A stretch of 64,000 nucleotides of DNA from Armatimonadota bacterium (GTDB lineage: Bacteria; Armatimonadota; UBA5829; DTJY01): positions 1 through 64,000 of the forward strand of contig JAGONM010000021.1 of NCBI GenBank assembly GCA_017993055.1. Direction: 5' to 3'. How positions within the stretch are numbered: position 1 is the stretch's first letter; each line of letters opens with the position of its first letter. The notes under the pieces were generated by a model that was not told the DNA's origin, ran no database searches, and saw only the letters and a list, made by a program, of their open reading frames with translations. Position numbers and translations under genes: made by a program. Below, piece by piece: positions 3 through 47,624 of the stretch.

Positions 3-3000
3 GCGGGCGTTTCCTACGACAGGGATTTCCTCTACGCCTACTACGGCTATCAGACGCCCGGGCCCTACCCGATCAATACCTACGCGATCAACGAGAACTT
101 CCAGTGGCGCAACCCGGACGATCCATCCACGAACCAGCCGGACAACGGCACGACCTCGACCTGCTATGAGTTTCGCGTCGTCTACGTGAACAGCGACAAC
201 TTGCCTCCGGTACCGTATCTGACGGAGTGGGGCGGGCCTATCGGAGACGACTACATCGGCCTGAGGACCGGTGAAGTCGATACAGGGGTCGTGCTGTACC
301 TGAGGAACAAGTCATGGGATCCTGAAGCGGACTTCATCGCCATCCCGATGCAGAAGGTGAACGAGGGCGATACCAACTATGCGGATGGTTGCGAGTACTT
401 CTACGCCATCGAGCCCCAGGGCAGAAACGCTCACGTTGGACTTCCGATCGGTGAGTACGAGTATTTCTTTGGATGCAGCGACGATCTCATCAGGACGAAG
501 GGCGGTGCCATACCCTGGTGGCTCGACAACGATCTCATATACAGTCCGCTCGATATCCTGCCCAAGAGGGCGCTGGATCTCCCGATCACCGGGGCGACGA
601 GGTCGCGGCACCCCGTCTGGTACGCGTTCATGAGCGCCTACAACATGGGTCTCTATTTGGACAGGCCGACCCTGCAGCCGGGTGTCTCGAACTCGTACTA
701 TCTTCTGGCGGACCGGCATCCGGTCGTCAGCGTCGGTCTGAAGCATCCCGATCCCAGCCTTTCGCCTTGGCAGTGCACAGTCTCGCCGGCGTATCCGATG
801 GTGAACCCCCAGACAGGTGGCGTGCAGATGGGCGGTGCCGAGAACCAGAAGTGGGACTTCCTGATTATGTACCAGCATCTCGACGGCGTTACTACACCCG
901 AATCCAGCCAGGGATCGGGTGGCGAGATCAGTGTCTGGATCAATAACTCCAATACCAGGACTCCCAACCCGGCCGATCCCAGTACTCTCTATACCAGGTA
1001 TACGCTGAGGCGTGATCCCGATAACGCTCTCGGAACCGACATCAAGGAAGGCATTCTATACAACCTCGACAAGCCGGTCCAGCTGTCGCCTGGACCCCAT
1101 TCGTACTTCTTTACCACCAGTGATGGTCGGAAGCGTGCGCGCTATCCGGTTGAGGGGCATTTCTACGAGGGCACACATGCCTTCACGGGGCCTTACGTCA
1201 ACCACAGGCCTGTGCTGTCCAATCCTCTGGTGGACCCCCCGACGGGCACCGCCGGTGACAGGTTCCGCTACTCGGTCTTGTACAAGGATGCTGACAACCA
1301 GCGTCCCTTCTCGGCAAAGATATACATCGAGTACGCGGACGGCCAGGTTCTCGTCGGTGAGATGGTGAAACAGAATCCTGCTGACAGCGACTACGATGGC
1401 ACCGGCGTGAGATACATCTTCGATACCGCAAATATGGCCCAGCAGTTCCAGGTCGGCCAGCGCAGGTTCTATTTCGAGTTCACGGACGACTGGGGCGCTC
1501 CGAACGATCCCAGGGACCAGCGTCGGGGCGAAGCCGTCTACTGGAACAGCGTCCGCCCCGAATCATGGATATACGGGCCCTACATCAACAGGAATACCCC
1601 GCCCCAGTTGTTCGAAGGCGGAGTGACTGCGACGGACGGCGCGAACAACAGCGCGACCCTGTTCGAGTACAAAGTCCGCTACGTGGACGTTGACAACCAC
1701 TCGCCGAAGTACATTGACGTCTACATCGGTCAGATGCAGTCCAACGGCAGCATCAGTTGGGACAACGGCCACCGCATGGATCCGGTTGATCCGACTGACG
1801 TGATCTATGGCGACGGCGCATCGTTCCACTACTATTCCAGACTGACCGGAGATGCCGCGGGGAAGAACTACTACTACTGCTTCGTGGCATCCGACGGCTA
1901 TGACGTAGCCGAGTATGACGAGATCGAATCTCCCAGCTCAGGCACTGTATGGTACACGTGGAGCAGCGCGGACTTCTTCGATCCCCTTCGCAGGATTCTG
2001 CACAAGGGCGAGCGGCTCTCCTCCGGCAGCGGGGTCTTCGAGACCACCCACAAGCCGATCGTCGGCCCGATACCCAATGCTCCCACGTACAACCCGTACC
2101 GGGCGCCTCTGGTCTGGTCGGTGGTCGACGGCTCGGAGTTGAGCTACACCTCAGTCAGCTACGTGAGTGGGCTGGTGACGGTTCCGAGCCAGACTCAGAT
2201 TGATCTGCAGTACTGGTTTGCGACCGCCGGTCCGACGGGTGTGACCGCGAACAACCCGCCGAGCTTGTCCCAGGGCAGGGTCTCTCCCGACCCTGGGGAG
2301 TCGATCAACGAGTATACCTACACGGTTGTATACACAGACCTGGACGGTACGACGGGTCAGGCGCCGTACTACATCAGGGTGAGAATAGATGGTGTCGCCT
2401 ACGATATGATGCGGGCGTCTGGGCAGGGTGAACCCGACTACAAGCGCGGCGTGACCTACTACTACCGAACGAGTTCGCTGACTCCTCAACTGCCTCACCG
2501 CTACTACTTCGAGGCCTCGGATGGAAGCGGCTTCGCGATATTCGACAACAACGGCGGCAGGCAGTCAGGTGAGGAGATCGGGGCGGTTGTACCGATACCC
2601 GGTCCGTACGTAAACAACAAGCCTACGCTGACCGCACCCGCGGGCGGCGCGGTCAACCCGATACCGGGGACCCCGATTAACGAGTCCACCTGGGTCAACT
2701 TGAGCATCATCTACACCGATGCGAACAACGAGTGGCCGAGTAGCGGCTATCCGGTCGTGTATATACGCAAGGTGATAGCGGGCCAGCCGACTCCGCCGAT
2801 CGCGCCCGAACCTGCCAATGACTTCAAGGTTGGATCAGTCAACGGGAACAGCATCACTCTGCTGAATCTCGACGATTCCACGCCGAGTTGGACCGTTGAT
2901 GAGTTCAAGGGACTGCCGCTCCAGATGACGAGCGGCACACTCTCTGGAACATCGTTCAAGGTCACCGGGAATACGGCGAGCACGTTGACTGTGTTCGCAA

Positions 3001-5654: not shown

Positions 5655-5665
5655 AAGGTACGGAT

Positions 5666-6475
5666 ATGCGAACGATGCTTAGACTGAGATGCGTCAGGTG
5701 GATCGCTTGGATGATCGTGGTGCAGTTCGGACTGCCCTACATGGGCGGCGCGGTCCTCGCGGCCACGTCCAAGGAAATGTTGAGGCAGACGGCTGTCATA
5801 TTTCCTGTCGGGAATATGGAAACGGATTCACCGTCTGCCGCGAAGGCGGCCAGAGCCGCCGACCACCTCACGGCTCTCCTTCAGAGGGGATTCGCGGGCT
5901 ATCCGAGATACCTCACCGTCAACTACTCGGAACGCCTACCATCAGTGCAGAAGATCGCAAGTATGGACCCTGATGGAAAGAAGCTTGTTGCAGGACCCTT
6001 TGCGGGCGATCCGGATGCCATGAAGCGAGCGCTGGCGATAGCGAAGGCGACGTCAGCTGATGTCGCCATCACGAGTACTCTCGACTTCTATAAGTTCGAC
6101 GCAGGCAAGAGCGAAGTGGCCATTACGGCGACCGTTCACGTGGTTGACGTGAAGAGCGCCAAGTCCTATGATACGACGGTTACTGGTCGCGCATCCAGGC
6201 CCGCCGGAGATGATACGGCCGAGGGCGTGCTGGCCGAAGACGCTGTACGCGATGCGGGCATGAAGCTTATGGAGCAGATTACTGGCGGACAGTACGATTC
6301 TGCGCAGCAGCAGCCGGTGGTGGTTGCTTCCGCTGAGAAGCGTTCCAAAAAGAACTGGCTTCCGATGCTCCTGTTGTCGCTCGGTGTGGGTCTGCTGGTG
6401 AGTAGCTCGGGCGGCAGCAGCGATTCAGGAACGCCAGGCGGGGCTGATCCTCCGCCGAATCCGCCGGGCTTCTAG
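5666..6475 (+). CDS. Secreted protein of unknown function, first of a paralogous pair
   Basis: A 269-residue protein with a Sec-type signal (basic start, hydrophobic stretch, cleavage near VLAA). A body of about 190 residues follows, then a hydrophobic segment (LPMLLLSLGVGLLV) and a short Gly/Ser/Pro tail. The body starts with a beta strand reading AVIFPVGN and has an S-x-L-D-x-Y-x-F-D-A-G motif shared with the next gene, so the two are tandem paralogs. The fold looks like TolB- or CsgG-type N-terminal alpha/beta domains, but that is only an impression. ATG 5666 is preferred because AAAGG lies seven bases upstream; the alternative ATG at 5651 overlaps the previous stop and has no clear ribosome site. 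Confidence 0.8.
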   Translation: MRTMLRLRCVRWIAWMIVVQFGLPYMGGAVLAATSKEMLRQTAVIFPVGNMETDSPSAAKAARAADHLTALLQRGFAGYPRYLTVNYSERLPSVQKIASMDPDGKKLVAGPFAGDPDAMKRALAIAKATSADVAITSTLDFYKFDAGKSEVAITATVHVVDVKSAKSYDTTVTGRASRPAGDDTAEGVLAEDAVRDAGMKLMEQITGGQYDSAQQQPVVVASAEKRSKKNWLPMLLLSLGVGLLVSSSGGSSDSGTPGGADPPPNPPGF

Positions 6476-35779: not shown

Positions 35780-36352
35780 GTGACGGAAGACGAACAGCCC
35801 TTCGATCAGGAACCCGAAGCAGAGGGAGAAGAAGGATCTCACGCGGATGATAGCGATCAGGACCCCGGCGCAAGCCCGGACCGGTCGTTCAGCTCTGAGA
35901 TAGAGAATCGCGTCCCACGAGACCTCGAGGAGAAGGAGGTCAGGGTGATGGGTGTCTACGAACATCTCGAGCAGGGCATGGAGCCCGCAGCCTTCGTCCT
36001 CCTGCGAGATGATCAGGGCCGCCAGGTTCTGATATGGATTGGACGTTACGAGGCTTATGCAATATCTCTCGCCTTGGAGGGTACCACTCCGGACCGCCCA
36101 ATGACACACGACCTGATGAAGAGCCTGATTGATCGTCTAGGGGGATCGATGGAGCGCGTTGTCATTGATGACTTGTGGCACGAGACCTACTACGCGAAGA
36201 TCTCCGTGGCGAAGGGTGACAGCGTGTTGGACATAGATGCGAGACCGAGTGACGCGATAGCCCTCGCACTCAGAGCAAGGGCCCCAGTATTCGTTGCCGA
36301 GTTCGTTCTTCAGCAGGCCGCGGTCAGCGAGGACTTGATACCGCCCGAGTAG
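35780..36352 (+). CDS. Bifunctional nuclease (DUF151) family protein
   Basis: A 190-residue protein. Residues 1 to about 48 are a highly acidic, probably disordered extension (many Glu and Asp). The DUF151/BFN domain follows (VYEHLEQGMEPAAFVLLRDD, LIWIGRYEAYAISLALEG, PMTHDLMKSLIDRLGG, ARPSDAIALALRARAPVF). Plant members were described as bifunctional nucleases; bacterial function is little known. The start is GTG with GAGAGGA nine bases upstream. It lies 80 bases after rho and may be co-transcribed. Confidence 0.88.
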   Translation: MTEDEQPFDQEPEAEGEEGSHADDSDQDPGASPDRSFSSEIENRVPRDLEEKEVRVMGVYEHLEQGMEPAAFVLLRDDQGRQVLIWIGRYEAYAISLALEGTTPDRPMTHDLMKSLIDRLGGSMERVVIDDLWHETYYAKISVAKGDSVLDIDARPSDAIALALRARAPVFVAEFVLQQAAVSEDLIPPE

Positions 36353-36401
36353 TGTGCAGTTAACATAACAAACATTATCAGGCGTTCCGTCTCGCTCAAG
36401 A

Positions 36402-36435
36402 AAGGGTGAGAGACTTGTGTCAACCCCTCACCCTT
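36402..36435. terminator. Hairpin between convergent units
   Basis: AAGGGTGAG (36402-36410) pairs with CTCACCCTT (36427-36435), with a 16-base loop. It lies 50 bases after the DUF151 stop and 38 bases after the end of the opposing small membrane-protein gene. There is no T tract on the plus strand, so termination efficiency is uncertain. Confidence 0.5.
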
Positions 36436-36472
36436 GTGCGCCTATAATTTCGTCATGTCGCTGCAGCAAATG

Positions 36473-36682
36473 TCAGCCTACTGGTGACTCAAGTAAGACC
36501 CCGAGACCGGACTCGATCTCCCGTATCTTTGCGTGGCACTGCGCTATGATATCCTGTGCGTCCCGAACCGGATGCACTGGCTCTCTCCGCGTTCGCGTGA
36601 ACAAGTATAGTCCTACAACAAGTCCGCCGACGACTCCCGCGGTCACCCCCAACACAGTCGCCAATCGTCCATTCGCGTCCAC
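36473..36682 (-). CDS. Small single-helix membrane protein
   Basis: A protein of about 69 residues: a short N-terminus, one transmembrane helix (LGVTAGVVGGLVVGLYLF), a basic RTRR stop, then a charged amphipathic tail (RDAQDIIAQCHAKIREIESG). The plan is like YtxH-type small membrane proteins, but the sequence was not recognised. GGAGG lies nine bases before GTG 36682; another in-frame GTG at 36688 is too close to it. It is 36 bases behind the response regulator and may be its co-transcribed partner. Confidence 0.6.
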   Translation of the reverse strand: MDANGRLATVLGVTAGVVGGLVVGLYLFTRTRREPVHPVRDAQDIIAQCHAKIREIESGLGVLLESPVG

Positions 36683-36717
36683 GTCCACTATCCTCCGCGT
36701 CCTTACCAGTTCGCAGA

Positions 36718-37128
36718 CTACTTGAGTTCGTATCTCTTGCCGCCGAAATCGTCCTGGTCCAGTGACTTGAAGATGCGCTGGACGAAGGACAGCAGTTCCA
36801 TCGGGTTAAATGGTTTCGTCAGATAGCAGTCCACACCAGACTGCCACCCTTTGAAGACATCCGCGTCCTGGGCTTTTGCTGTCAGCATTATTACAGGAAT
36901 ATCACGCGTACTTGGGTTGCGTTTCATGTTCTGCAGCACTTCAAAACCGTCCATATACGGCATCATAACGTCAAGGATGACGAGATCGGGGCGCTCGGAG
37001 TCCACCTTCTCAAGAGCCTCGCGCCCGTCATAGGCCGTCACCACTTCATAGCCTTGCCGTTCCAGGTTCACCTGAATCAGTCGGACTATGTGCTTCTCGT
37101 CGTCCACAGTCAGAATCTTCCGAGGCAT
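36718..37128 (-). CDS. Single-domain response regulator (CheY-like receiver)
   Basis: A 136-residue receiver domain with no output domain. The acidic pocket is VDDE, the phospho-acceptor Asp is in LVILDVMMPYMDG near residue 54, the Thr is in VIMLTAKA and the Lys is in LTKPFNP. It can signal only through protein contacts or by phosphorelay. No histidine kinase is encoded in the window. ATG 37128 has a strong GGAGGAGG; the longer form from 37149 would place that site inside the gene. It has its own consensus promoter. Confidence 0.93.
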   Translation of the reverse strand: MPRKILTVDDEKHIVRLIQVNLERQGYEVVTAYDGREALEKVDSERPDLVILDVMMPYMDGFEVLQNMKRNPSTRDIPVIMLTAKAQDADVFKGWQSGVDCYLTKPFNPMELLSFVQRIFKSLDQDDFGGKRYELK

Positions 37129-37157
37129 CCTCGTCCTCCTCCAAGACAATCGTCGTT

Positions 37158-37186
37158 AGTATAACATGGGTACTCGCCAGTGTCAA
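37158..37186 (-). promoter_or_regulatory. Promoter of the response regulator
   Basis: On the minus strand TTGACA (37186-37181), a 17-base spacer and TATACT (37163-37158) match consensus. The -35 box contains the TGA stop (37185-37183) of lipM. The leader is about 23 bases. Confidence 0.85.
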
Positions 37187-37968
37187 CGAACAGGGCGATA
37201 CGCCCGCAACGTCCACTCCGGGTCGTCATACTTGGCAGAGCGCAAGGAGAGCGCCTTATCTACTTCCAGCGGCGAGAGCTCTCCGTCAAAGGGCGGTGCC
37301 CCGAGCATGTGTGCGAAACTTCCAACTATCGCACTCTCAAGTGCGTCTCTATCGAGTACAACGGCTGACTCCCCGGCCTCAGGAGAGGGGCTGCCAAAGA
37401 CGTCTTCGAGGTTGACTACGGGCTTCTGTAAGGGGATGGATCCCTGTTCCAGAATGATCCCCTGCTTGCGTGCTTGTGCAGAACCGGCCACTTTTCGGTC
37501 GCCGACCGTGACATCGCATGAGGCGATATGCGCGAAGCAGTCTGCGCTGCGGCCCGATGGAGCCGCTTGACTCCGTCCGAGCCGAGCGTCCAGTCCCATA
37601 GCCCTCAGACCGCCGATAATGCCCTGCATGAGCCAGGAATGGCTGCCCGGCACACTTCTACGGTCTGCTGGCAGCAGTTCCGAGCCTACCACAATGCTGA
37701 AGGTCAGGTCATGCCCGTGCAACACTGCACGACCTCCGGTGAGCCTCCGTACTAACTGCAAGCCGCGAGCTCGAATAGCGTCGGGATTGAGGCCGCGCTC
37801 GGAATCCTGGAAGTAGCCCAGGGAAATGGAGGGTCTATCCCAGCCGTAGAACCTGATCGTCGGTGGAGACTTGCCTTCCGCATGGGACAGCAGAAGCGCC
37901 TCATCGACCGCCATGTTAAGTGCGGCATCGAGATCACCCTGCCGAATCAGTCGCCAGATTGCTGCCAT
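37183..37968 (-). CDS. lipM: Octanoyltransferase LipM / lipoate-protein ligase family
   Basis: A 261-residue BPL/LplA-family enzyme that attaches octanoyl or lipoyl groups to carrier proteins. Visible motifs are TIRFYGWDRPSISLGYFQ, RRLTGGRAVLHGHDLTFS and CFAHIASCDVTVGDRKVAGS, in which the first Cys would be the LipM acyl acceptor, followed by GSAQARKQGIILEQGSIPL. LipM transfers octanoate from ACP; a lipoate ligase activity cannot be excluded. ATG 37968 lies 22 bases inside the end of gcvPB with GGAG five bases upstream, so translation is coupled to the glycine cleavage genes. Its target GcvH is made from the same mRNA. Confidence 0.87.
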   Translation of the reverse strand: MAAIWRLIRQGDLDAALNMAVDEALLLSHAEGKSPPTIRFYGWDRPSISLGYFQDSERGLNPDAIRARGLQLVRRLTGGRAVLHGHDLTFSIVVGSELLPADRRSVPGSHSWLMQGIIGGLRAMGLDARLGRSQAAPSGRSADCFAHIASCDVTVGDRKVAGSAQARKQGIILEQGSIPLQKPVVNLEDVFGSPSPEAGESAVVLDRDALESAIVGSFAHMLGAPPFDGELSPLEVDKALSLRSAKYDDPEWTLRAYRPVR

Positions 37969-39404
37969 GTCAACTCCAGCTTCCGTGCGGCTTGGGCTTC
38001 GTCAATCCTGACTCTAATCTTGGAATGAGGCGCTGACAAGATGATGTCCGGGTCGGATTCCGCCTCGCGGGCTATACTAATCATTGCATCCGCAAAGGCA
38101 TCCAGAGTCTCGATGCTCTCGGTCTCCGTCGGCTCTATCATCAACGCCTCTGGAACGATCAGCGGGAAGTAGATCGTCGGCGGATGGAACGCGAAATCCA
38201 TAAGGCGCTTGGCAATATCCGCGGCTCTGACTCCGCGGACCTTCTGGCGTGTCGCTGATGCTACGAACTCATGCATACAGCGATTCCCATAGGGTACATC
38301 GTAGTGCTCCCCCACCCTCGCAAGCAAGTAGTTGGCGTTCAGGACCGCATTCTCGCTGACCGCTCGGAGTCCGGCTCCACCAATACCGAGGATGTACAGG
38401 TATGCGCGTATGATCACGCCTACGTTGCCGAGAAAAGCATGGGCGCGGCCGATCGAATGCGGTCGTTCCTGCTCCAACACGAACCCTTGATCTCGCCGAA
38501 CAATCCTTGGGATCGGCAGATAAGGTGCGAGAAAGCTCTTTACGGCGACAGGGCCGGACCCGGGTCCTCCACCACCATGCGGTGAGGCGAACGTCTTGTG
38601 CAGGTTGAAATGCATGGCGTCGAATCCCATGTCCCCCGGACGTGCAACTCCCAGTATGGCATTCATGTTGGCACCATCGCAATAGAGCAAAGCGCCCGCC
38701 TCGTGAACCATACGTGCAATCTCCGTCACCCGCACTTCGAATAGCCCGAGCGTATTCGGGTTGGTGAGCATCAAGGCAGCAGTATCGTCTGAGAGGCTCT
38801 CGCGCAGAGCCTGCAGGTCCACGCAGCCATCACGTCCGGAGGGGATCTTCACCACCTCGTAACCGCATCGAGAGGCGGTCGCCGGATTCGTGCCGTGCGA
38901 CGAATCAGGGACGAGAACTACTCGACGCTGGACGTCTCCCAGCCGCTCATAGTGTTTCTTGAAGAGCATCATAGCGACGAGTTCGCCCTGCGCGCCAGCT
39001 GCCGGCTGCAGTGTTACGGAATCCATTCCGGCGATCTCCGCAAGGAACCGCTCCATCTCAAAGAGCACCCGCAAGATACCCTGGCAAGTCGAATCATCCT
39101 GATACGGATGCACCATGCTGAACCCGGACAAGGCGGCCAGGCTCTCGTGAATCTTCGGGTTGTGTTTCATGGTACAGGAGCCGAGTGGGTAAAACCCCGT
39201 ATCAACACCGTAGTTACGAAGAGAAAGTCGCGTGTAGTGGCGCACCACATCCGCCTGGCTTAGCTCAGGCAGCGGAAGCTCCGCGCGCAGAGCACTCTCC
39301 CCCAGGATTTCTCCGGCGTCGGTGTCAGGGACGTCGCTTGATGGAAGCATTATGCCGGTCCGCCCCCGAGAACTCAGTTCGAAAACCGTGCACTCGTCAT
39401 TCAT
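37947..39404 (-). CDS. gcvPB: Glycine dehydrogenase (decarboxylating) subunit 2
   Basis: This is the C-terminal half-type subunit of the P-protein, which decarboxylates glycine and passes the aminomethyl group to lipoyl-GcvH. The 485 residues contain the PLP-binding Lys in HFNLHKTFASPHGGGGPG. Other family motifs are GFYPLGSCTMKHNPK, SHGTNPATA and the late YFPLIVPEALMIEPTETES. ATG 39404 overlaps the gcvPA stop as ATGA; a GTG at 39416 in the same frame is an alternative start. The split P-protein (PA plus PB) is typical of many non-proteobacterial lineages. Confidence 0.96.
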   Translation of the reverse strand: MNDECTVFELSSRGRTGIMLPSSDVPDTDAGEILGESALRAELPLPELSQADVVRHYTRLSLRNYGVDTGFYPLGSCTMKHNPKIHESLAALSGFSMVHPYQDDSTCQGILRVLFEMERFLAEIAGMDSVTLQPAAGAQGELVAMMLFKKHYERLGDVQRRVVLVPDSSHGTNPATASRCGYEVVKIPSGRDGCVDLQALRESLSDDTAALMLTNPNTLGLFEVRVTEIARMVHEAGALLYCDGANMNAILGVARPGDMGFDAMHFNLHKTFASPHGGGGPGSGPVAVKSFLAPYLPIPRIVRRDQGFVLEQERPHSIGRAHAFLGNVGVIIRAYLYILGIGGAGLRAVSENAVLNANYLLARVGEHYDVPYGNRCMHEFVASATRQKVRGVRAADIAKRLMDFAFHPPTIYFPLIVPEALMIEPTETESIETLDAFADAMISIAREAESDPDIILSAPHSKIRVRIDEAQAARKLELTWQQSGD

Positions 39405-40741
39405 GCGTTGAGACACTCTGCAAAGTATTCAATCTGCTCTCTCGTGTGTTTCTCTGTCACGCAGACCAGCATATGCCCCGCCAACTCGGAGTAGAAGCTT
39501 CCGAGGTCGAGCCCCCCGATGATGCCGCGCTTGAGCAGTTCCGCGTTCAACGACTTAATAGGCTTATTAGTCTTAAGCACAAATTCCTTAACAAAGCTAT
39601 ATCCGAATGGGATGGCGAAGCCCTCAGACTCAGACGCCAGTCGTGACGCGTACTGCGACTTATCGAAGCAGAGACGGGCGGTGTTACGGAGCCCTTCCGG
39701 TCCCAGCGTCGCGAGATAGACTGTCGCGGCGAGAGCGTTAAGGGCTTGGTTGGTGCATATGTTGGAAGTCGCGCGCTCTCGTCGGATGTGCTGTTCACGG
39801 GTCTGAAGAGTGAGCGTGTAGGAGCGGCATCCGTTTGCATCCGTAGTGCCGCCGACGAGTCTGCCGGGCATCTGCCTAACGTGCTCCTTCTTACATGCCA
39901 TCAGTCCGAGAAGCGGTCCTCCGTACCCGGGGTGAACTCCGAGAGACTGCCCCTCAGCAACGCAGATATCCGCATTGAACTCTCCCGGCGGCTTGAGCAG
40001 TCCCAGGGAGATTGGATCCGCGCACACGACCAGCATCGCCCCATGCCTATGTGCGATCTCTTCAATGAGATGTACGTCTTCAACCAATCCGAAGAAGTTC
40101 GGGTACTGGATGACGACGCACGACACGGTATCGCTCATGAGTCTCGAGATACCGTCCGGATCGGTTTCGATCCCACAGAGGGGTGTCTCCTTCATGACGC
40201 TGCCGGAACCCCATGCGTATGTCTCCATAGTCCTGCGATACGCGGGGTGGACGGACCGAGACACGAGCCATTGGTTGCGACTTGTGATATTGTCAGCCAT
40301 GAGTGCCGCTTCCGCGAGCGCGCTAGCGCCATCATACATGGAAGCGTTGGAGACTTCCATTCCGGTGAGCTGGCTGATCATAGTCTGAAACTCGAATATG
40401 ACCTGCAGGTTCCCTTGGCTCATCTCCGGCTGATAAGGTGTGTACGATGTGTAGAACTCCGATCGCGCCGTGATGGCACGCACAGTCGCGGGAATGTAGT
40501 GGTCGTAGACACCTGCTCCGAGAAAACAGATGCATTCGTCGAGGTTCCTGTTCTCACGGCTGAGACCGTCGGCGAAACGGCGTAGCTCCAACTCGGACAT
40601 GGGACCCGGTACGTCCAGTTCCTTGTCGAGGCGGAGATCGCCAGGAATATGAGCGAAGAGATCTGATACCTCTGCCAGGCCGATCGTCTCCAGCATAGTG
40701 CGGATGTCGGAATCGGTGTTGGGTATGTATGGTGATCTCAA
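39401..40741 (-). CDS. gcvPA: Glycine dehydrogenase (decarboxylating) subunit 1
   Basis: The N-terminal half-type subunit of the P-protein; it forms an alpha2beta2 enzyme with GcvPB. Family signatures are SPYIPNTDSDIRTMLETIG at the start, YHYIPATV-like DHYIPATVRAI, FYTSYTPYQPEMSQGNLQ and GVHPGYGGPLLGLMA. The start is inferred to be TTG 40741. It overlaps the gcvH stop as TTGA, fits the family N-terminus, and has GAAGGG just before it. No ATG or GTG lies nearby in frame. The predicted length is 446 residues. Confidence 0.94.
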   Translation of the reverse strand: MRSPYIPNTDSDIRTMLETIGLAEVSDLFAHIPGDLRLDKELDVPGPMSELELRRFADGLSRENRNLDECICFLGAGVYDHYIPATVRAITARSEFYTSYTPYQPEMSQGNLQVIFEFQTMISQLTGMEVSNASMYDGASALAEAALMADNITSRNQWLVSRSVHPAYRRTMETYAWGSGSVMKETPLCGIETDPDGISRLMSDTVSCVVIQYPNFFGLVEDVHLIEEIAHRHGAMLVVCADPISLGLLKPPGEFNADICVAEGQSLGVHPGYGGPLLGLMACKKEHVRQMPGRLVGGTTDANGCRSYTLTLQTREQHIRRERATSNICTNQALNALAATVYLATLGPEGLRNTARLCFDKSQYASRLASESEGFAIPFGYSFVKEFVLKTNKPIKSLNAELLKRGIIGGLDLGSFYSELAGHMLVCVTEKHTREQIEYFAECLNA

Positions 40742-41118
40742 TGCCCTTCGATGAACCTCTCGTATTGTTCGGAGGACATCAGGTCCTCCACTTCGCTGGG
40801 GTCGTCCATCTTGACGATCACCATCCATCCCGCTGCATAGGGGCTTTCATTGACCCGCTCGGGGGTCTCAGTGAGTTCCTCGTTGACTTCCACTATCTCA
40901 CCGCTGACTGGTGCGATGATGTCGGAAACACTCTTGATCGACTCGATGGTTCCGAACATGTCGCCCCTCTGCACAGTCGCCCCGACGTCGGGCAACTCCA
41001 TGAACACTATGTCTCCCAGTTCGGATTGAGCGTGCTCCGTGATTCCGACCGTGGCCAAGTCATCCTCGACCTTGAGCCACTCGTGCGATGCTGTGTATTT
41101 GAGATCATCAGGATTCAT
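40738..41118 (-). CDS. gcvH: Glycine cleavage system H protein
   Basis: A small lipoyl carrier of 126 residues that shuttles the aminomethyl intermediate between P and T proteins. The start reads MNPDDLKYTASHEWLKVEDD. The lipoylated Lys is in ESIKSVSDIIAPVSGEIVEV. ATG 41118 overlaps the gcvT stop as ATGA and has GGAGGAGGGAG upstream. Lipoyl attachment is probably by the LipM-like enzyme encoded at the operon end. Confidence 0.97.
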   Translation of the reverse strand: MNPDDLKYTASHEWLKVEDDLATVGITEHAQSELGDIVFMELPDVGATVQRGDMFGTIESIKSVSDIIAPVSGEIVEVNEELTETPERVNESPYAAGWMVIVKMDDPSEVEDLMSSEQYERFIEGH

Positions 41119-42236
41119 AGTTCTCCCTCCTCCTGCGCGGGCATCCCGACATGGATAGGCTTCGGCCTGTAGAATGGAGTGCCGGTCACGCGAACACCGC
41201 ACTTCCTGTCGCGTATCATGATCGCAAGATCGGTTCCCGGTTGAACGAACTTCCGGTCAACGTATGCAAGCGCGATTGGTTTCTGCAGCGTGGGCGAGAA
41301 GGTCCCACTGGTGACAATGCCCACCTGAACATCGTCCGCGAGAACGACTTGCGCATGGCGTGGAATGCATCTGTCATTGACCTCAAGTCCGACGAGTCTC
41401 CTTGCGGCGCCTGCAGCAGACTGCGACTCAATGGCTGTGCGCCCCAGAAAATCGCCCTTCTCGAGATGTACTGCCCACATCAGGCGTGCCTCTACGGGAG
41501 TGATCTCCGCCGAGAGTTCGTGCCCGTGAAGCGGATAGGCCAACTCCAGCCTGAGCACATCCCGAGCTCCGAGGCCGGCGGGTTCCATGCCGTACGCTTT
41601 TCCTGTGTCCAGCAGATGTGACCATAGAGTCGAGGCATCGTTCCAGTCACAGAGCAGTTCGAACCCGTCTTCCCCGGTGTAACCTGTGCGCGCCGCGAGA
41701 CACTTGACAGCGCCCACCTTACCGTACCGAGCGTGAAACCTGGGTATCAGGGTAAGATCTAAATCCGCCGACTCAGTGAGAACCTGTTCAGAACGTGGGC
41801 CTTGCACGGCGATTATGGCGGTATCGGTGGACCGGTTTGTCACTTCAGCGCCAGGCGCCGCGTGAGCACTGATCCAACGAAAATCGTTGTCGGCATTGGA
41901 TGCGTTCACCACCGCGAGATAGGAGTCGCTCTCTAGGCGATAGAGTATTAGGTCGTCGAGCACGCCGCCATCATCGGCGCACAGTAGAGTGTACTGGGCT
42001 TGCCCTTCGCAAAGTCTCGAGGCGTCATTGGTCATAATCCTCTGCAAAGCCTCGAGTGCGCCGGTGCCGGAGATGAGTATCTCGCCCATGTGCGACAGGT
42101 CAAAAAGGCCAACGGCGTAGCGAACCGACAGGGTCTCATGCGATATGCCGGAGTATTGCAGCGGCATCTCCCATCCCGCGAAGTCGGTCATTCTGGCCCC
42201 TAGCCGGATATGTTCATTGAAAAGAGGGGTGCGCAT
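41115..42236 (-). CDS. gcvT: Aminomethyltransferase (glycine cleavage T protein)
   Basis: The T protein moves the one-carbon unit from GcvH to tetrahydrofolate, giving 5,10-methylene-THF and ammonia. The 373 residues show TPLFNEHIRLGARMTDFAGW, the FDLSHMGEI motif, RTGYTGEDGFEL with the folate-binding site, and GLGARDVLRLE. GAGG eight bases upstream supports ATG 42236. It follows the homocysteine methyltransferase gene by 27 bases. No glycine riboswitch is seen in front of it. Confidence 0.97.
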   Translation of the reverse strand: MRTPLFNEHIRLGARMTDFAGWEMPLQYSGISHETLSVRYAVGLFDLSHMGEILISGTGALEALQRIMTNDASRLCEGQAQYTLLCADDGGVLDDLILYRLESDSYLAVVNASNADNDFRWISAHAAPGAEVTNRSTDTAIIAVQGPRSEQVLTESADLDLTLIPRFHARYGKVGAVKCLAARTGYTGEDGFELLCDWNDASTLWSHLLDTGKAYGMEPAGLGARDVLRLELAYPLHGHELSAEITPVEARLMWAVHLEKGDFLGRTAIESQSAAGAARRLVGLEVNDRCIPRHAQVVLADDVQVGIVTSGTFSPTLQKPIALAYVDRKFVQPGTDLAIMIRDRKCGVRVTGTPFYRPKPIHVGMPAQEEGEL

Positions 42237-42263
42237 CAGGAAGCCTCAAAGAGCAGGCGGTAT

Positions 42264-43133
42264 TCAGACCTTGAGACGCTTCTTCATCTCGCGTATATGA
42301 TCAGGAGTACTTCCGCAGCAGGCCCCGACTACGTTGACCCCGAGTCGTGCACATTCGACGGCGAAACCGGCAAGCTCGGCCGGAGTCGCATCGTAAACAA
42401 CTTGGCCTCCCATTACCTTCGGGAGACCAGCATTCGGCTGTGCAATCACAGGTATGTCGGTCGAGGCGCGAATCTCTGAAATCACCTGAAGCATGCCCTC
42501 GGGACCGACGCCGCAGTTGGCGCCGACGCCATCCGCTCCGGCCGACGTCAGTTCACTTGCCGCACTTGAGGGCTTCACGCCCATCATAGTCCTACCCCCA
42601 GTGTCGAACGCCATAGTACACAGGCACGGGAGTCCGGAGCGCCGCGCGCCCTCGAGAGCCGCTTTGAGTTCGTCCAGATCGGAGAAGGTCTCCAAAAGGA
42701 TCGCATCAGCGCCGGCAGAGGCCTGAGCGCCCGCCGCTTGGGCAAAGGCATCCGACACGTCAGCGAAGCGCAGATTCCCCAGTGGCTCAAGAAACTGGCC
42801 TGTCGGTCCCAGAGACGCCATCACGAAGCACTCATCGCCGGCAGCGTGTCTGGCAAGTGATACGCCGGCGGCGTTCAGTTCGGCCGCGCGGTTCTCCAGT
42901 CCGTAGCACGCAAGTTTGATCCGTGTGCCCCCGAAGGTGTTGGTGGAAATCATGTCCGATCCTGCCTCTACATAGGCGGTGCACACATGCTTCACCGCGT
43001 CGGGATGCTCGACATTCCACAACTCGGGGCATTCACCTGCGTCCATTCCGTGCCGTTGCAGCATGGTACCCATCGCGCCGTCGGCCAGCACCGGGCCTCC
43101 CAAGATCGCTTCGAGAAAACGAATACTGCTCAT
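42264..43133 (-). CDS. Homocysteine S-methyltransferase domain protein
   Basis: A 289-residue stand-alone domain like the N-terminal module of cobalamin-dependent methionine synthase (MetH) and the BHMT/MmuM enzymes. Zinc-binding cysteines are in GANCGVGPE and in GACCGSTPDHI near the C-terminus. The start VLADGAMGTMLQRHG and the TNTFGGTRIKL motif are typical. The methyl donor is unknown; S-methylmethionine, betaine or methyl-corrinoid/THF from a separate subunit are all possible. ATG 43133 overlaps the previous stop as ATGA. Its place next to the glycine cleavage genes suggests feeding one-carbon units into methionine. Confidence 0.9.
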   Translation of the reverse strand: MSSIRFLEAILGGPVLADGAMGTMLQRHGMDAGECPELWNVEHPDAVKHVCTAYVEAGSDMISTNTFGGTRIKLACYGLENRAAELNAAGVSLARHAAGDECFVMASLGPTGQFLEPLGNLRFADVSDAFAQAAGAQASAGADAILLETFSDLDELKAALEGARRSGLPCLCTMAFDTGGRTMMGVKPSSAASELTSAGADGVGANCGVGPEGMLQVISEIRASTDIPVIAQPNAGLPKVMGGQVVYDATPAELAGFAVECARLGVNVVGACCGSTPDHIREMKKRLKV

Positions 43134-44206
43134 TCGTTCAGTCCATCCTTCTTATCTGACTGTGTCTCCCGCTGTCCAGCCGTGTGTCTTGCCATCGCGA
43201 GTTGAGCCAGTAGCAGCGAGATACATGCCTCGGCGCCTTGATTCTCGTTGACCCCAGACGGATTGATCCCGTCTCTGCAGCCGCCGGTCTCCGGGTCGTA
43301 AACCGATCTTCCTGACCGATTCTTGCCGAAGAACCAGTCGTAGCTGGTACGCGCCGAATCCAAGTACTCCGGTGCGTCCAGGATCGAGTAAGCGGCGGTG
43401 AGGGCATGTACCGAGTAGCCCGCATCTATGCTCTGTTGATCGTACCATGGGCGGTCCCCGCCCTTCTGGTACCAACCGTCGTTACCGATGATCTCGAGTC
43501 GGCCCCCAACCACCGTGGTCTCAATCAGGAAGTCAAGAGTCCGCCTGCCCACATCGAGATACCCTTTGTCGTCGGTGGCACTTCCCGCCATCAGCATACT
43601 GAGTGGGAGCACGGCATTACCGTAGGTCATGTACGGCTCGAACCAATGCCACCGGTCGTCCGAGTACTCTCTGACCTGAAAAGCGAGTCTGTCGGCAAGC
43701 GCGCGGACTTGGTTCTGTATGCCCTCGTCATGCTCGACCCTAAGGTACTCGCACAGGCCGATCAGGGAGTATGCGATCGCGCGAGGGCTGGTCAGGTCCC
43801 CGACGTGCGGAGCAGCAGCCCTGATGATCTTCTTCGCTACCGTGCTCATGCTCTCGGGAATACGGGCAGAAGCCGCAACTCCGCAACCCCACATGCATCT
43901 CCCAAGGCAGTCCTCAGTACCGTCCGCGTCGAGGAATGATCGCTGGTAGGTCATTATGTTGCTGAACCGGTATTGCGGATTCTGTGCATGATGAACGAAA
44001 CTGAGGTACTTCCGTGCGAGTTCCAGCGCGTCTGCGGAATGGGTAAGTTCGTACCCTCTCACCGCGACCAGCAGGGCGCGGGCGTTATCGTCCGTAGTGT
44101 AACCCAAGCGTCGGTTGGGGATCGAGAACACACCGTGCTGCAGGATACCCGTATCGTCGGTCATGGACTTCAAATAGCGCAGCGACAATGGTGGGTGCGT
44201 GGTCAC
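43130..44206 (-). CDS. Alpha/alpha-barrel (six-hairpin-like) glycan-associated protein
   Basis: A 358-residue protein of mostly helical character. It has the motif TTDDNARALLVAVRGYEL, Trp- and Tyr-rich segments (WHWFEPYMTYGNAVLP, NDGWYQKGGDRPWYDQQSID) and SYDWFFGKN. These resemble six-hairpin glycosidase-type toroids that occur next to family 4 glycosyltransferases; the exact activity is unknown. GTG 44206 overlaps the glycosyltransferase stop as GTGA, so translation is coupled. No signal peptide is present, so it is cytosolic. It probably acts on, or is a partner for, the glycan made by its neighbour. Confidence 0.75.
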   Translation of the reverse strand: MTTHPPLSLRYLKSMTDDTGILQHGVFSIPNRRLGYTTDDNARALLVAVRGYELTHSADALELARKYLSFVHHAQNPQYRFSNIMTYQRSFLDADGTEDCLGRCMWGCGVAASARIPESMSTVAKKIIRAAAPHVGDLTSPRAIAYSLIGLCEYLRVEHDEGIQNQVRALADRLAFQVREYSDDRWHWFEPYMTYGNAVLPLSMLMAGSATDDKGYLDVGRRTLDFLIETTVVGGRLEIIGNDGWYQKGGDRPWYDQQSIDAGYSVHALTAAYSILDAPEYLDSARTSYDWFFGKNRSGRSVYDPETGGCRDGINPSGVNENQGAEACISLLLAQLAMARHTAGQRETQSDKKDGLNE

Positions 44207-45594
44207 TGATCCCGTTCCTCTCGTGACTCGATGTTCTTGATGTCCACAGGTTTGGCATTCGCGATCTCCAGCTTACACCGCGCGCACAACTTGTGAAAGA
44301 GGTCGAGATAGTCTATAGCTACGTTGAACCATGCCGCGCGTCGGCCATACTTGTAAGCCTTCGTCTCCATCTGCTCGCGCAATGCCGGGTCAGCGAGTAT
44401 CTTGTTGATTGCTAAGCCTGTGCACTCAGGATCCTTGAAATCAACCAGTATCCCCCGGCCCTCGGAAAGGACCTCTTCCGCATAGAGGTACGGCGTAGAG
44501 ACCACTGGCTTTCCACACCCAATCGCGTAGGCGAGAGTCCCGCTGGTGATCTGATCTCTGTTGATATACGGCGTCAGATAGACATCCGTGGCCCCCAAGT
44601 AGTTAATCAACTCCTCGAGCGTCAGATACCGGTTGTTGAAGCGAACGTTCTTCTCGAGATGCAAATCCGACACGAGTTGAAGCAGTTCGTTACGATAGCT
44701 CTCTCCCTCGTGATTACGTACGCCGGGATGCGTCTCGCCAAGTACCAGATAGATGGCGTCGGGATTCTCCTCCACGACGGTCGCCATTGCCTTGATGCCG
44801 TACTCGATGCCCTTCCCGCGGCTGATCAGTCCAAAGGTTGATATAACCGGCCTGTCAGAGATGCCGAGGGCCTTCTTGACAGAGACCGAACTGACTCGAT
44901 GTACGTTGGGGACGCCGTGAGGAATTACCACAACCTTCTCCGGACGCGCCCGGTAGGTGTTCAGGAGAATCGCACGGCCGGCCTTGATCATAACCACTAC
45001 GGCATCGGAGAGTTCCGCGACGCGGTTCATGACCTGGCGCTGACCATCCGAGGGGTCAGACAGCACGGTGTGCAGAGTCGTGACGATAGGCTTCTGCAGC
45101 CTGTCCATGAATGCCAAGACATGCGAACCGTCCGGACCTCCGAAAATGCCGTATTCGTGCTGCACGCTGACCACATCAATCGTTGAGGCGTTGATCTGAT
45201 CGGCCACATCAAGGTACGACTGCAGGTCGTGTTTCTCGATATGATACTTGACGCTCTTTGGGTATTGCTCGATGGCGATGTCGCCGCCCACCGCGACTAC
45301 CGCCGGATCGGAAAAAGGCGTGTACTTTGCCACCGCCGTTACGACATCTTTGGTGAAGGTCGCGATTCCGCATTCCTGGGGCGGGTAGGTGCCGACGTAC
45401 GCGATCTCGATGCGGTTTAGGACCTCCCGAAGGAACCTGAACATCTTTAAATCTTCGGGATGCCAGCCTTCTCTGTCACCGTATCCCGCCAGAGCCAGAT
45501 CCTCCAGGCTCTTCGTGGCACGACTCGACCTCTTGCCCTCTGCCTTCTCTTCTACCGCCAATTTCCTTCTCCGAATCATACAGACGCGGTTCAT
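44203..45594 (-). CDS. Glycosyltransferase family 4 protein
   Basis: A 463-residue GT-B retaining glycosyltransferase that would use a nucleotide sugar. An N-terminal extension of about 60 charged residues precedes the first Rossmann domain (IEIAYVGTYPPQECGIATFT). The acceptor half has VVSVQHEYGIFGG. The donor half has VVIPHGVPNVH, VISTFGLISRGKGIEYGI, the E-x7-E-like DVYLTPYINRDQITSGTLAYA and the family turn GCGKPVVSTPYLYAEEVL. It is the first gene of the operon that continues to lipM. The start ATG 45594 is uncertain because no good ribosome site is seen; ATG 45579 is an alternative. Confidence 0.87.
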   Translation of the reverse strand: MNRVCMIRRRKLAVEEKAEGKRSSRATKSLEDLALAGYGDREGWHPEDLKMFRFLREVLNRIEIAYVGTYPPQECGIATFTKDVVTAVAKYTPFSDPAVVAVGGDIAIEQYPKSVKYHIEKHDLQSYLDVADQINASTIDVVSVQHEYGIFGGPDGSHVLAFMDRLQKPIVTTLHTVLSDPSDGQRQVMNRVAELSDAVVVMIKAGRAILLNTYRARPEKVVVIPHGVPNVHRVSSVSVKKALGISDRPVISTFGLISRGKGIEYGIKAMATVVEENPDAIYLVLGETHPGVRNHEGESYRNELLQLVSDLHLEKNVRFNNRYLTLEELINYLGATDVYLTPYINRDQITSGTLAYAIGCGKPVVSTPYLYAEEVLSEGRGILVDFKDPECTGLAINKILADPALREQMETKAYKYGRRAAWFNVAIDYLDLFHKLCARCKLEIANAKPVDIKNIESREERDQ

Positions 45595-45709
45595 TCGTTA
45601 TTGCCCTGCGACTGCATGGCGATCATTCGTGGTACAACACTGTATTCGACGGGAATCGTGAACGTACCTCCATCTAACCCCGCCACATGTTCTTGCCGCG
45701 AGCAGCAGC

Positions 45710-45738
45710 TTGTACCTTAGCCGGAATTCCTCTACAAT
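45710..45738 (+). promoter_or_regulatory. Promoter of the nucleoside phosphorylase gene
   Basis: TTGTAC (45710-45715), a 17-base spacer and TACAAT (45733-45738) form a good sigma70 promoter in the divergent region. A small hairpin, CTGCC with GGCAG, lies in the leader. No comparably clear promoter was found for the opposite glycosyltransferase operon. Confidence 0.7.
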
Positions 45739-45810
45739 AATCGCGTACCCCCTGCCAAGAAGGGGCAGCCGGCATCTGGGCGCACTAGTTCAGGGATGCG
45801 GAGGTGTGAT

Positions 45811-46566
45811 ATGACGATTGCGGTAATCGCTGGTACTGGTCTGTCAGATCCAGCAAGTGATCGCAAAATGCGCGTGTCTACAACCCCGTTCGGAGAGGCG
45901 TTTCTTTCTGAGGTCTCATTCGGCGGGTCAAGGACACTGATGCTCGCCCGGCATGGATCCGAACTCAATATCCCGCCGCATCTCATAAACTATCGCGCCA
46001 ACATGTGGGCGCTAAGAGATGCCGGGGTGGATACCGTAATCGCGACGGCCGCAGTCGGCTCCCTTGTGCCCGATCTCGCTCCTGGAAGCCTTGCCGTAGT
46101 CAAGGATTTCTTGGACTTGACACGGCAGAGGCCCAGCACATTTCAGGATGTGCCGGGAGAGTCAGTGAGACATCTGGACCTCAGCGTCGCCTACTGCCCC
46201 GAAGTTCGTGATGCCTTGTGCGAGGCGGCAGGACATGACAAGTTTCCGGAGGTCGTATACGCCTGCACGGAGGGTCCGCGTTACGAAACTCCGGCGGAAG
46301 TGCGGATGCTCAGACGGCTTGGTGCAGACGTTGTGGGAATGACCGGTGTCCCGGAGGTCGTGCTGGCGAGAGAACTGGGGATGTGTTACGGTACCCTGGC
46401 AATCGTCACGAACTACGCCGCAGGAATATCCCCCACCCCACTGTCGCACAATGACGTTGCCTCGGTAGCCCGAGAGCACCGCCAAGTTGTGCTCGAGATC
46501 ATCGGACGTGCGGTCGGTCTTCTGGTCGGGCGCCGGGGTTGTGCCGGATGCGCAACCGACGGTTAG
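45811..46566 (+). CDS. MTAP/PNP family purine nucleoside phosphorylase
   Basis: A 251-residue trimeric-type (class I) phosphorylase that splits a purine nucleoside with phosphate. Motifs are IAGTGLSD at the start, MLARHGSELNIPPHLINYRAN, TEGPRYETPAEVRMLRRLGA, VVGMTGVPEVVLARELG and IVTNYAAGISPTPLSH. In methylthioadenosine phosphorylases the segment after TNY carries Asp residues that bind the 6-amino group; here it is TNYAAG. A 6-oxopurine substrate (inosine, guanosine or methylthioinosine) is therefore more likely. ATG 45811 has GGAGG upstream, whereas ATG 45796 contains that site. The TAG stop overlaps the pilT stop on the other strand. Confidence 0.88.
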   Translation: MTIAVIAGTGLSDPASDRKMRVSTTPFGEAFLSEVSFGGSRTLMLARHGSELNIPPHLINYRANMWALRDAGVDTVIATAAVGSLVPDLAPGSLAVVKDFLDLTRQRPSTFQDVPGESVRHLDLSVAYCPEVRDALCEAAGHDKFPEVVYACTEGPRYETPAEVRMLRRLGADVVGMTGVPEVVLARELGMCYGTLAIVTNYAAGISPTPLSHNDVASVAREHRQVVLEIIGRAVGLLVGRRGCAGCATDG

Positions 46567-47624
46567 GGCCTCCGGATCATCTGTTTCAGTTCGGTGAGAT
46601 TGCCCGCATTTATGTACGCTTCCTCTTCCGTAATCAGGCCACCCTTGAAGAATTTCGTGAGGCACTGGTTCATAGTCTGCATGCCCCAATATCCACCTTC
46701 GGTGATCGCTGCGTATATCTGACTGGACCGCCCTTCCTCGATCAACTTGCTGATGGTGGGAGTAGCGATCATTATCTCGACGGAGGCAATCCGGCCCTGT
46801 CCATCGGCCTTGGGTATCAGCTTTTGGGAGACGATGCCGCGAAGCGACTGAGACATTCTCAGACATATCTGCGGCTTATCGTGAGGCGGGAACATGTTGA
46901 TGATTCGATCCAGAGTCTCCGCCGCGCTCGATGTATGTACCGTCGAAAGAACCAGGTGCCCGGTCTCTGAAGCCTGCAGGGCGACATTCATTGTCTCGAC
47001 GTCACGCATCTCACCTATCAGGATAATATCCGGGCTCTGACGCACGACATATTTCAGTGCCTCAGTGAACGAATTGGTGTCAATGCCGACCTCTCTCTGG
47101 TTCACTACACCGAGCTTGTCGGGATGAACGAACTCGATCGGGTCCTCGACGGTGACGATGTTGCACCGCCGGGTCTGGTTTATGAGGTCTATCATAGCTG
47201 CAAGAGTGGTGGACTTGCCTGATCCGGTCGGGCCCGTGACAAGAATCAACCCCTGCCTGTGCAACACCATGTCCTTCAGAACCGGGGGCATGCCTAGGTC
47301 GTCGAGGGAGAAGATATCAAGTGGGATGAGCCGGCAGACCATGCCCATGCTGCCGCGCTGCTGGTATATGTTCGCCCTGACGCGAGTGACGTCAGGAATG
47401 GTAAAGGCCAAGTCCATCTCATGGCGATTCTCAAACCTTCCGATCTGGTCGTGGGTCATGACGCTGTAGGCAAGGTCTCGTACCTGCTCGGCTGTCATAG
47501 GCTCCTGCTGATCCATCGGACTGATCCTGCCGTGAACGCGCAGCACCGGCGGCGCGTTCTCCTTGAGAAACAGGTCGGATGCTGTCTGACTAGCGCCGAT
47601 CTTCAGAAGTTCGCTCAAATCCAT
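46563..47624 (-). CDS. pilT: Type IV pilus retraction ATPase PilT-like
   Basis: A 353-residue hexameric secretion-type ATPase. The N-terminal PAS-like domain (ASDLFLKENAPPVLRVHGRI) is followed by Walker A GPTGSGKSTTLAAM. The Asp box (VTVEDPIEF), Walker B PDIILIGEMRD and His box TGHLVLSTVHTSSAAETLDR come next. The C-terminal retraction motif in PilT proteins is A-I-R-N-L-I-R; here the matching late part is different (NLTELKQMIRRP). It drives pilus retraction, hence twitching or DNA uptake. No other pil genes are in the window. GAGAGGG precedes ATG 47624. Confidence 0.93.
   Translation of the reverse strand: MDLSELLKIGASQTASDLFLKENAPPVLRVHGRISPMDQQEPMTAEQVRDLAYSVMTHDQIGRFENRHEMDLAFTIPDVTRVRANIYQQRGSMGMVCRLIPLDIFSLDDLGMPPVLKDMVLHRQGLILVTGPTGSGKSTTLAAMIDLINQTRRCNIVTVEDPIEFVHPDKLGVVNQREVGIDTNSFTEALKYVVRQSPDIILIGEMRDVETMNVALQASETGHLVLSTVHTSSAAETLDRIINMFPPHDKPQICLRMSQSLRGIVSQKLIPKADGQGRIASVEIMIATPTISKLIEEGRSSQIYAAITEGGYWGMQTMNQCLTKFFKGGLITEEEAYINAGNLTELKQMIRRP

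Follow-up and report, generated by a model that had tools for sequence, protein, structure and literature searches.

Why should genes for a glycosyltransferase and a glycosidase-like protein stand at the head of a glycine cleavage operon? The question is raised by a packed run of eight minus-strand genes (45594-37183) in the window, that is, the whole 64,000-nucleotide stretch analysed here, from an Armatimonadota bacterium (assembly GCA_017993055.1, contig JAGONM010000021.1). The window lies on contig C21 of a genome (G000) of 3.72 Mb in 82 contigs that is 99.63% complete. The run is probably one operon of three modules that were assembled in lineage-specific fashion within a class of Armatimonadota. 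Its first module, a glycosyltransferase (GT) and an (alpha/alpha)6-toroid protein (GLY), would be a widespread mannoside module. Outside this class, GT-GLY was not seen paired with a glycine operon, and the pairing may largely reflect gene packing.

GT-GLY would be the two-gene form of a mannoside module normally located near GH130 beta-mannoside phosphorylases: GT would build or extend an oligosaccharide, GLY would trim or rearrange the same molecule, and GH130 enzymes, encoded elsewhere in the window genome, would return mannose 1-phosphate. The second module, a homocysteine S-methyltransferase (HMT), would turn homocysteine into methionine. The third, gcvTHPAPB-lipM, would supply methylene-tetrahydrofolate (methylene-THF), which methylenetetrahydrofolate reductase (MTHFR) can reduce to methyl-THF for methionine, so that modules 2 and 3 would belong together metabolically. 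Module 1 would be on the shared transcript because it heads an arrangement conserved in the class (a STAS-domain gene, GT, GLY, amino-acid genes and a response regulator, RR), and not through a reaction common to glycan and glycine chemistry.

Layout of the eight-gene unit

The unit and its downstream border comprise the following features:
44203-45594, minus strand: GT, GT4-like glycosyltransferase, first gene, 463 residues
43130-44206, minus strand: GLY, (alpha/alpha)6-toroid glycosidase/epimerase-like protein, 358 residues; GTG start, GTGA overlap with the GT stop
42264-43133, minus strand: HMT, stand-alone homocysteine S-methyltransferase domain, 289 residues; ATGA overlap with GLY
42237-42263, minus strand: gap between HMT and gcvT, the sole gap of the unit, 27 nucleotides
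41115-42236, minus strand: gcvT, aminomethyltransferase (TIGR00528)
40738-41118, minus strand: gcvH (TIGR00527); ATGA overlap with gcvT
39401-40741, minus strand: gcvPA (NF001696); TTG start, TTGA overlap with gcvH
37947-39404, minus strand: gcvPB (NF003346); ATGA overlap with gcvPA
37183-37968, minus strand: LipM/LplA-like octanoyl- or lipoyl-transfer protein, 261 residues; 22-nucleotide overlap with gcvPB
37158-37186, minus strand: sigma-70-like promoter (consensus match) ahead of RR, overlapping the end of lipM; TTGACA-17-TATACT, 11/12, TG before the -10
36718-37128, minus strand: RR, single-domain response regulator, next gene downstream

The eight-gene packing described in the original prediction was confirmed at all seven junctions by base-by-base re-reading of the minus strand, which gave five 4-nucleotide overlaps, one 22-nucleotide overlap and one 27-nucleotide gap. 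The TTG start of gcvPA is supported by G003, a relative whose GcvPA starts with GTG in the same residue region. A rough longest-open reading frame (ORF) gene call, in which starts are approximate and gcvH is missing from the list, gave 22 close same-strand pairs in the window; of those not belonging to the operon, a single pair (186-5654 / 5651-6475) has a 4-nucleotide overlap. Judged from this packing, co-transcription of the eight genes is likely. As to the further claim that the glycan genes are translationally tied to one-carbon metabolism, start and stop codons do overlap within GT-GLY-HMT and within gcvT-lipM, but the 27-nucleotide gap before gcvT breaks the chain between the two halves.

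Upstream, the unit is bordered by a divergent MTA-phosphorylase-type gene (MTAP) starting at 45796 on the plus strand (233.3 bits against a name cut-off of 274.85). The strong promoter-like site at the end of lipM, before RR, is taken as the downstream border. Scanning 36300-46000 for sigma-70-type sites turned up 4, where shuffled sequences averaged 4.2. The only strong one is that at 37186-37158; two minus-strand 9/12 matches within genes are at the chance level of the scan and were rejected as internal promoters. A terminator-like scan was uninformative (4 sites, with 5.0 in shuffled sequences). Control by a riboswitch or other RNA within the unit was likewise rejected, Rfam giving no match with an E of 0.1 or less in 36000-47000; six relative loci gave nothing at gathering score beyond one tRNA.

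As a glycine cleavage operon, the gcv-lipM half is ordinary. Its four gcv products exceed the cut-offs of the NCBIfam models listed above: GcvT with 382.8 bits against 235.85, GcvH with 169.8 against 115.85, GcvPA with 618.9 against 364 and GcvPB with 723.1 against 441. The window GcvH reads ESIKS, and the lysine, which we take to be the lipoyl lysine, is aligned with a lysine in the relatives G001, G003, G017 and G024. The LipM-like protein carries an LplA-B catalytic domain (PF21948, 103.7 bits against a cut-off of 27) and reaches no NCBIfam cut-off; it probably acylates GcvH. The name lipM is that of the original prediction; the protein may be specific for octanoyl-ACP or act as a lipoate ligase, the Cys-Phe context in it being a hint.

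HMT consists of a homocysteine S-methyltransferase domain by itself (PF02574, 1.4e-72) and reaches no NCBIfam cut-off. It scores below the equivalogs for MetH (TIGR02082, 190.2 against 1010.85), whose folate-binding and B12 domains are not in the same protein here, and for betaine-homocysteine methyltransferase (NF005718, 261.2 against 338 bits), as well as below the PRK08645 cut-off (281.6 against 453). HMT is probably a piece of a corrinoid-type methionine synthase split over several genes. A second HMT of 498 residues is encoded on contig C3 of the window genome and followed directly by an MTHFR-family gene (L155, 6624-8992); its last ~200 residues match no Pfam family at E 0.001. On contig C16 (L179, 6587-9121), a stand-alone corrinoid protein of 211 residues, whose closest NCBIfam models are MtgC and related corrinoid proteins at sub-cut-off scores, is encoded beside a RACo-type reductive activator, and the genome also holds two pterin-binding matches. 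Taken together, the second HMT with its MTHFR-family neighbour, the corrinoid protein with its activator and the pterin-binding matches fit a split methionine synthase. The MtgC-like corrinoid protein, together with passages of PMC12478193, also led to a glycine-betaine route being considered, in which HMT would act as a betaine-homocysteine methyltransferase feeding gcv; it was not adopted, HMT being under the betaine equivalog cut-off, and no demethylase search was made.

It had been predicted that the linkage has no obvious metabolic reason. This is answered in part: HMT, as an enzyme of one-carbon and methionine metabolism, bridges to gcv, so that only GT-GLY is foreign to the unit.

The GT-GLY pair and its usual neighbours

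GT matches Pfam Glycos_transf_1 (2e-17, 63.7 bits against a cut-off of 26.4), and its profile matches are MshA, PimB' and other GT4-like chains. The EX7E donor-site motif is typical of GT4 and is visible as E-7-E in the printed alignments for the GT4 chains MshA, tll1590, 5i45 and PimB'. By alignment columns, it occurs in the GT region of none of 43 rows in two alignments (22 in A2, 21 in A3). The window GT reads QITSGTLAYA at this place and the group QIxSGTLxYA; a strict QxxSGxLxY-type pattern is found in 40 of the 43 rows. By sequence, then, GT is a GT4 relative without the usual donor-site residues. Each alignment covers a subset: A1, the window plus 23 of the 40 fetched loci; A2, the window plus 21 of the 39 GT loci; A3, 21 of the 59 fused genes; and A4, the window plus 30 of the 80 loci.

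The AlphaFold2 model of GLY, built from a 31-row alignment, is a helical toroid (predicted local distance difference test score, pLDDT, 90.5; predicted template modelling score, pTM, 0.90). In a ranking obtained by VIA-align re-scoring of Foldseek's own matches, the best fold match is 7tem (Z 39.8, root-mean-square deviation 2.4, 335 residues), followed by cellobiose 2-epimerases and a GH9-type exo-enzyme (Z ~32) and by GH76 mannanases (Z ~28). Sequence profile matches to GH9, GH76 and cellobiose 2-epimerase are weak, and the fold is common to all of them. To PF06662 (D-glucuronyl C5-epimerase C-terminus), GLY has only a partial match, marginally above the cut-off for the whole protein (25.3 against 23.3 bits), with no single stretch passing and only profile positions 22-62 of 188 covered; at E up to 0.1, this family is matched by 17 of 24 members. 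A fused homologue of 727 residues (L075) models as a GT-B domain plus a GLY-type toroid, and the model of this homologue matches GlgM, MshA and PimB'. The relative placement of the two domains is uncertain because the pTM is only 0.55. GLY is interrupted by one stop codon in G015 (L042) and by two in G016 (L064), through either sequencing error or decay.

The pair is widespread. A survey of 61 genomes (that of the window and 60 relatives) found GLY in 42, one of which, G011, has only a weak 22.7-bit match and is not counted below as a GLY carrier. Forty loci were fetched from 39 genomes (G011 and G030 unfetched), and GT lies beside GLY in 39 of them; the exception starts at a contig edge. In a named genome collection, the 80 best GLY loci, with flanks of up to 8 kb that are shorter at contig ends, come, by their titles, from many bacterial phyla and some archaea. 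GT adjoins GLY in 78 of these, the other two being contig edges. A gene call on 78 of the loci (L072 and L080 left out) gave 77 with a readable GLY: GT and GLY are fused in one ORF in 59 and not in 18, some of which are cut by contig ends.

The recurrent company of the pair is a neighbour cluster present in 62 of these 78 loci and taken as GH130 by a Pfam match of one member (L081). By Pfam, GLY also has a GH130 neighbour in L059 and L067, two loci of other classes in the phylum. A GT-GLY fusion, a GH130 gene and an AGE-family epimerase stand in a row on an annotated Rhizobium plasmid. Within the class of the window, GLY is missing from 4 of 28 genomes, and these are precisely the 4 that have no GH130. 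The window genome has six GH130 matches, none of them on contig C21. HMT or gcv was found near GLY in none of the 80 best named-collection loci, including L072, L080 and probably L145 of the phylum of the window, and in none of 18 fetched loci from other classes of the phylum. Since GT-GLY occurs without gcv nearby in the 80 named-collection loci and in most class loci, it would need no glycine chemistry, and since its usual neighbour elsewhere is GH130, its tie to gcv is probably lineage-specific.

Conservation of the junction within the class

The class comparison covered 23 loci, the window and 22 fetched ones. The order of the families (f1-f4) was derived from GT and GLY themselves, with no independent species tree behind it. 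In nine loci, the gene after GLY is a same-strand HMT: the window, G002, G003 and G004 in f1, G005, G007 and G009 in f2, and G017 and G024 in f4, that of G017 being called by tblastn plus genome search. All eight genes follow one another without interruption in the window and in G003, a member of another genus of the same family (43-67% protein identity for the eight genes). In G024, HMT and gcvT are separated by a branched-chain-type amino-acid ABC transporter, and the contig breaks off in gcvPA; in G017, gcvTHPAPB-lipM-RR is on another contig than GT-GLY-HMT. G001 has three contigs, with GT-GLY, with gcvTHPAPB and with gcvPB-lipM-RR-BFN-Rho-HPRT, an order that is compatible but unproven; no operon-type HMT was found in this genome.

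In G002 and G004, the junction is eroded to gcvH alone between HMT and RR. This GcvH (L032, L033) is the only GcvH match of these genomes, in which neither GcvT nor GcvPA was found. Its conserved lysine is replaced by Glu in G002 and Asp in G004. Between the two gene copies, 15 of 128 codons are different, and 6 of these changes alter the residue, so the gene is not obviously decaying.

Thirteen of the 28 class genomes have gcvPA. In G005, G007, G009, G011, G014, G015, G018 and G020, gcvPA and GLY are on different contigs or, in G005, ~218 kb apart (G011 being without an accepted GLY); with several of these contigs short, the two could still be neighbours across a contig break. Conservation of the gene order, which the original prediction had named as a check, was thus found whole in G003 and in part in G024 and G017, of another family, but not in the other gcv-bearing class genomes as far as contigs reach. 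In the HMT tree, operon HMTs are separated from others with a support of only 57, and f1 groups with f4 with a support of 75.

Pure chromosomal neighbourhood would be one alternative: the genes would be co-oriented by accident in a syntenic block (PilT-MTAP-GT-GLY-...-RR-BFN-Rho-HPRT), with no selection for co-expression. The block with PilT, MTAP, RR, BFN, Rho and HPRT is indeed kept in G002, G003 and G004, and the spacing of GLY and HMT varies from an overlap (in the window and, by the longest ORF, in G005) through ~118 nucleotides (G003) to 355 (G002). However, five of the seven window junctions are 4-nucleotide overlaps, GLY and HMT are co-oriented in all nine loci where HMT comes after GLY, and MTAP and BFN-Rho-HPRT are not co-oriented with the block. 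This explanation appears the least likely of those weighed here.

The flanks of GT-GLY bear on a second alternative. A STAS-domain gene lies directly upstream of GT in 21 of the 22 fetched class loci (for example, L034 7668-8051), the remaining one being cut at a contig edge; the one copy tested is an anti-sigma factor antagonist. Among the 22 informative loci (L035, which is cut off too early, was excluded), the gene after GLY is HMT in 9, an APC-type permease in 5, an SNF-type symporter in 2, RR in 4 and an opposite-strand gene in 2. One APC and one SNF gene were assigned by Pfam, and the others were matched to them by tblastn. Every same-strand gene other than RR seen behind GLY in the class encodes an amino-acid enzyme or transporter. 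RR (37128-36718) is 75-86% identical in class loci and 65% in G001; it is located behind GLY, its cargo or lipM in f1, f3 and f4, and not in f2.

These genes could constitute a signalling locus, in which GT-GLY would make a carbohydrate reserve or compatible solute with a turnover set by amino-acid and one-carbon status, the cargo (HMT-gcv, HMT-liv, an APC or an SNF transporter) being interchangeable within that theme. The STAS position and the tally of genes after GLY speak for such regulated linkage, as does RR, which is found downstream in the window, in three of the four other f1 loci and in nine of eleven f3 loci. However, no STAS match was found in front of the window GT, RR has its own promoter-like site, in f2 (L039) RR is on the other side and on the opposite strand, four loci are without cargo, and no DNA-binding output domain was found on RR, nor any in the eight genes. 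Regulated linkage is unlikely, though it is the best placed of the alternatives; it is kept in view, and the junction is not called chance, because amino-acid genes recur behind GLY in the class. Ranking behind it, and rather doubtful, is a more specific version: STAS-GT-GLY-[slot]-RR would be a locus under signalling control that links a mannoside store inside the cell with the supply of amino acids and one-carbon units, GT being a non-canonical GT-B enzyme without EX7E that, together with GLY, possibly uses a non-nucleotide sugar donor (for example, a sugar phosphate).

Lineage-specific assembly around a mannoside module remains the preferred reading, and several observations weigh against it. 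Without EX7E, GT may perform chemistry other than ordinary glycosyl transfer. It is from neighbours and folds that a mannoside role of GT-GLY is deduced, no GH130 gene adjoins the pair in the window, and the co-absence of GLY and GH130 concerns two genera of one family and may be one or two loss events. GT-GLY-HMT occurs in three families and gcv-lipM-RR in f1 and f4, which are not sisters in the GT+GLY tree; the junction is therefore no one-off and has persisted or arisen twice. Finally, amino-acid genes follow GLY in 16 of the 22 informative loci, which may be more uniform than random packing.

GT plus toroid, often fused, is a large enzyme pair with no name of its own in the libraries searched, found from archaea to Bacteroidota and often near GH130. 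In this class, its operon cargo has clearly changed: across related families, the slot behind GT-GLY is occupied by genes for glycine cleavage, for branched-chain-type amino-acid transport or for amino-acid permeases. If the amino-acid theme is functional, a carbohydrate reserve would be tied to one-carbon and amino-acid supply.

Comparison with known systems

A literature search on operons combining gcv with a glycosyltransferase showed nothing of the kind at the level of listings, which says little on what is in print. The closest solved structure to GLY, both by profile (7.6e-25) and by fold, is 7tem, the putative exported protein YPO2471, with 20% identity; it is described as exported, with no stated function, and a literature search on 7tem/YPO2471 gave nothing on function.

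The glycine cleavage half resembles operons of the gcvT-gcvH-gcvPA-gcvPB type with a lipoyl- or octanoyl-transfer gene; gcvT, gcvPA, lipM and the word operon occur together in PMC12674515 and PMC3519856. The likeness comprises the four proteins, the split P-protein and the overlapping lipM-like gene. Unlike the usual operon, the window unit has GT-GLY-HMT in front, and no L-protein (dihydrolipoyl dehydrogenase) gene is among its eight genes, the genome not having been searched for one.

A works-like analogy for GT-GLY is provided by the mycobacterial methylmannose polysaccharide enzymes ManT and MmpH, a mannosyltransferase and an endomannosidase acting on the same glycan (PMC9883506). Neither is among the closest fold matches: ManT (7qsg) ranks 17 and MmpH (7qsj, Z 25.8) ranks 38. 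A methylated mannan as in mycobacteria, a candidate prompted by the fold matches, was rejected, no sugar methyltransferase being present among the eight genes.

A known counterpart of the pair is in Thermoanaerobacter. Loci L081 and L082 have the order GH5-like, GH130, GH130, guanylyltransferase-like, GT, GLY, which matches the published GH130 cluster Teth514_1785-1796 of Thermoanaerobacter sp. X-514; there, according to PMC4264767, a GT4 gene, predicted to encode a GDP-mannose-dependent mannosyltransferase, adjoins a gene of function unknown. From this gene order, Teth514_1785 ('hypothetical') would be a GLY member. In X-514, the pair has genes for two beta-1,2-mannoside phosphorylases and a GDP-mannose gene as its neighbours (PMC4264767), whereas the window pair sits with HMT and gcv.

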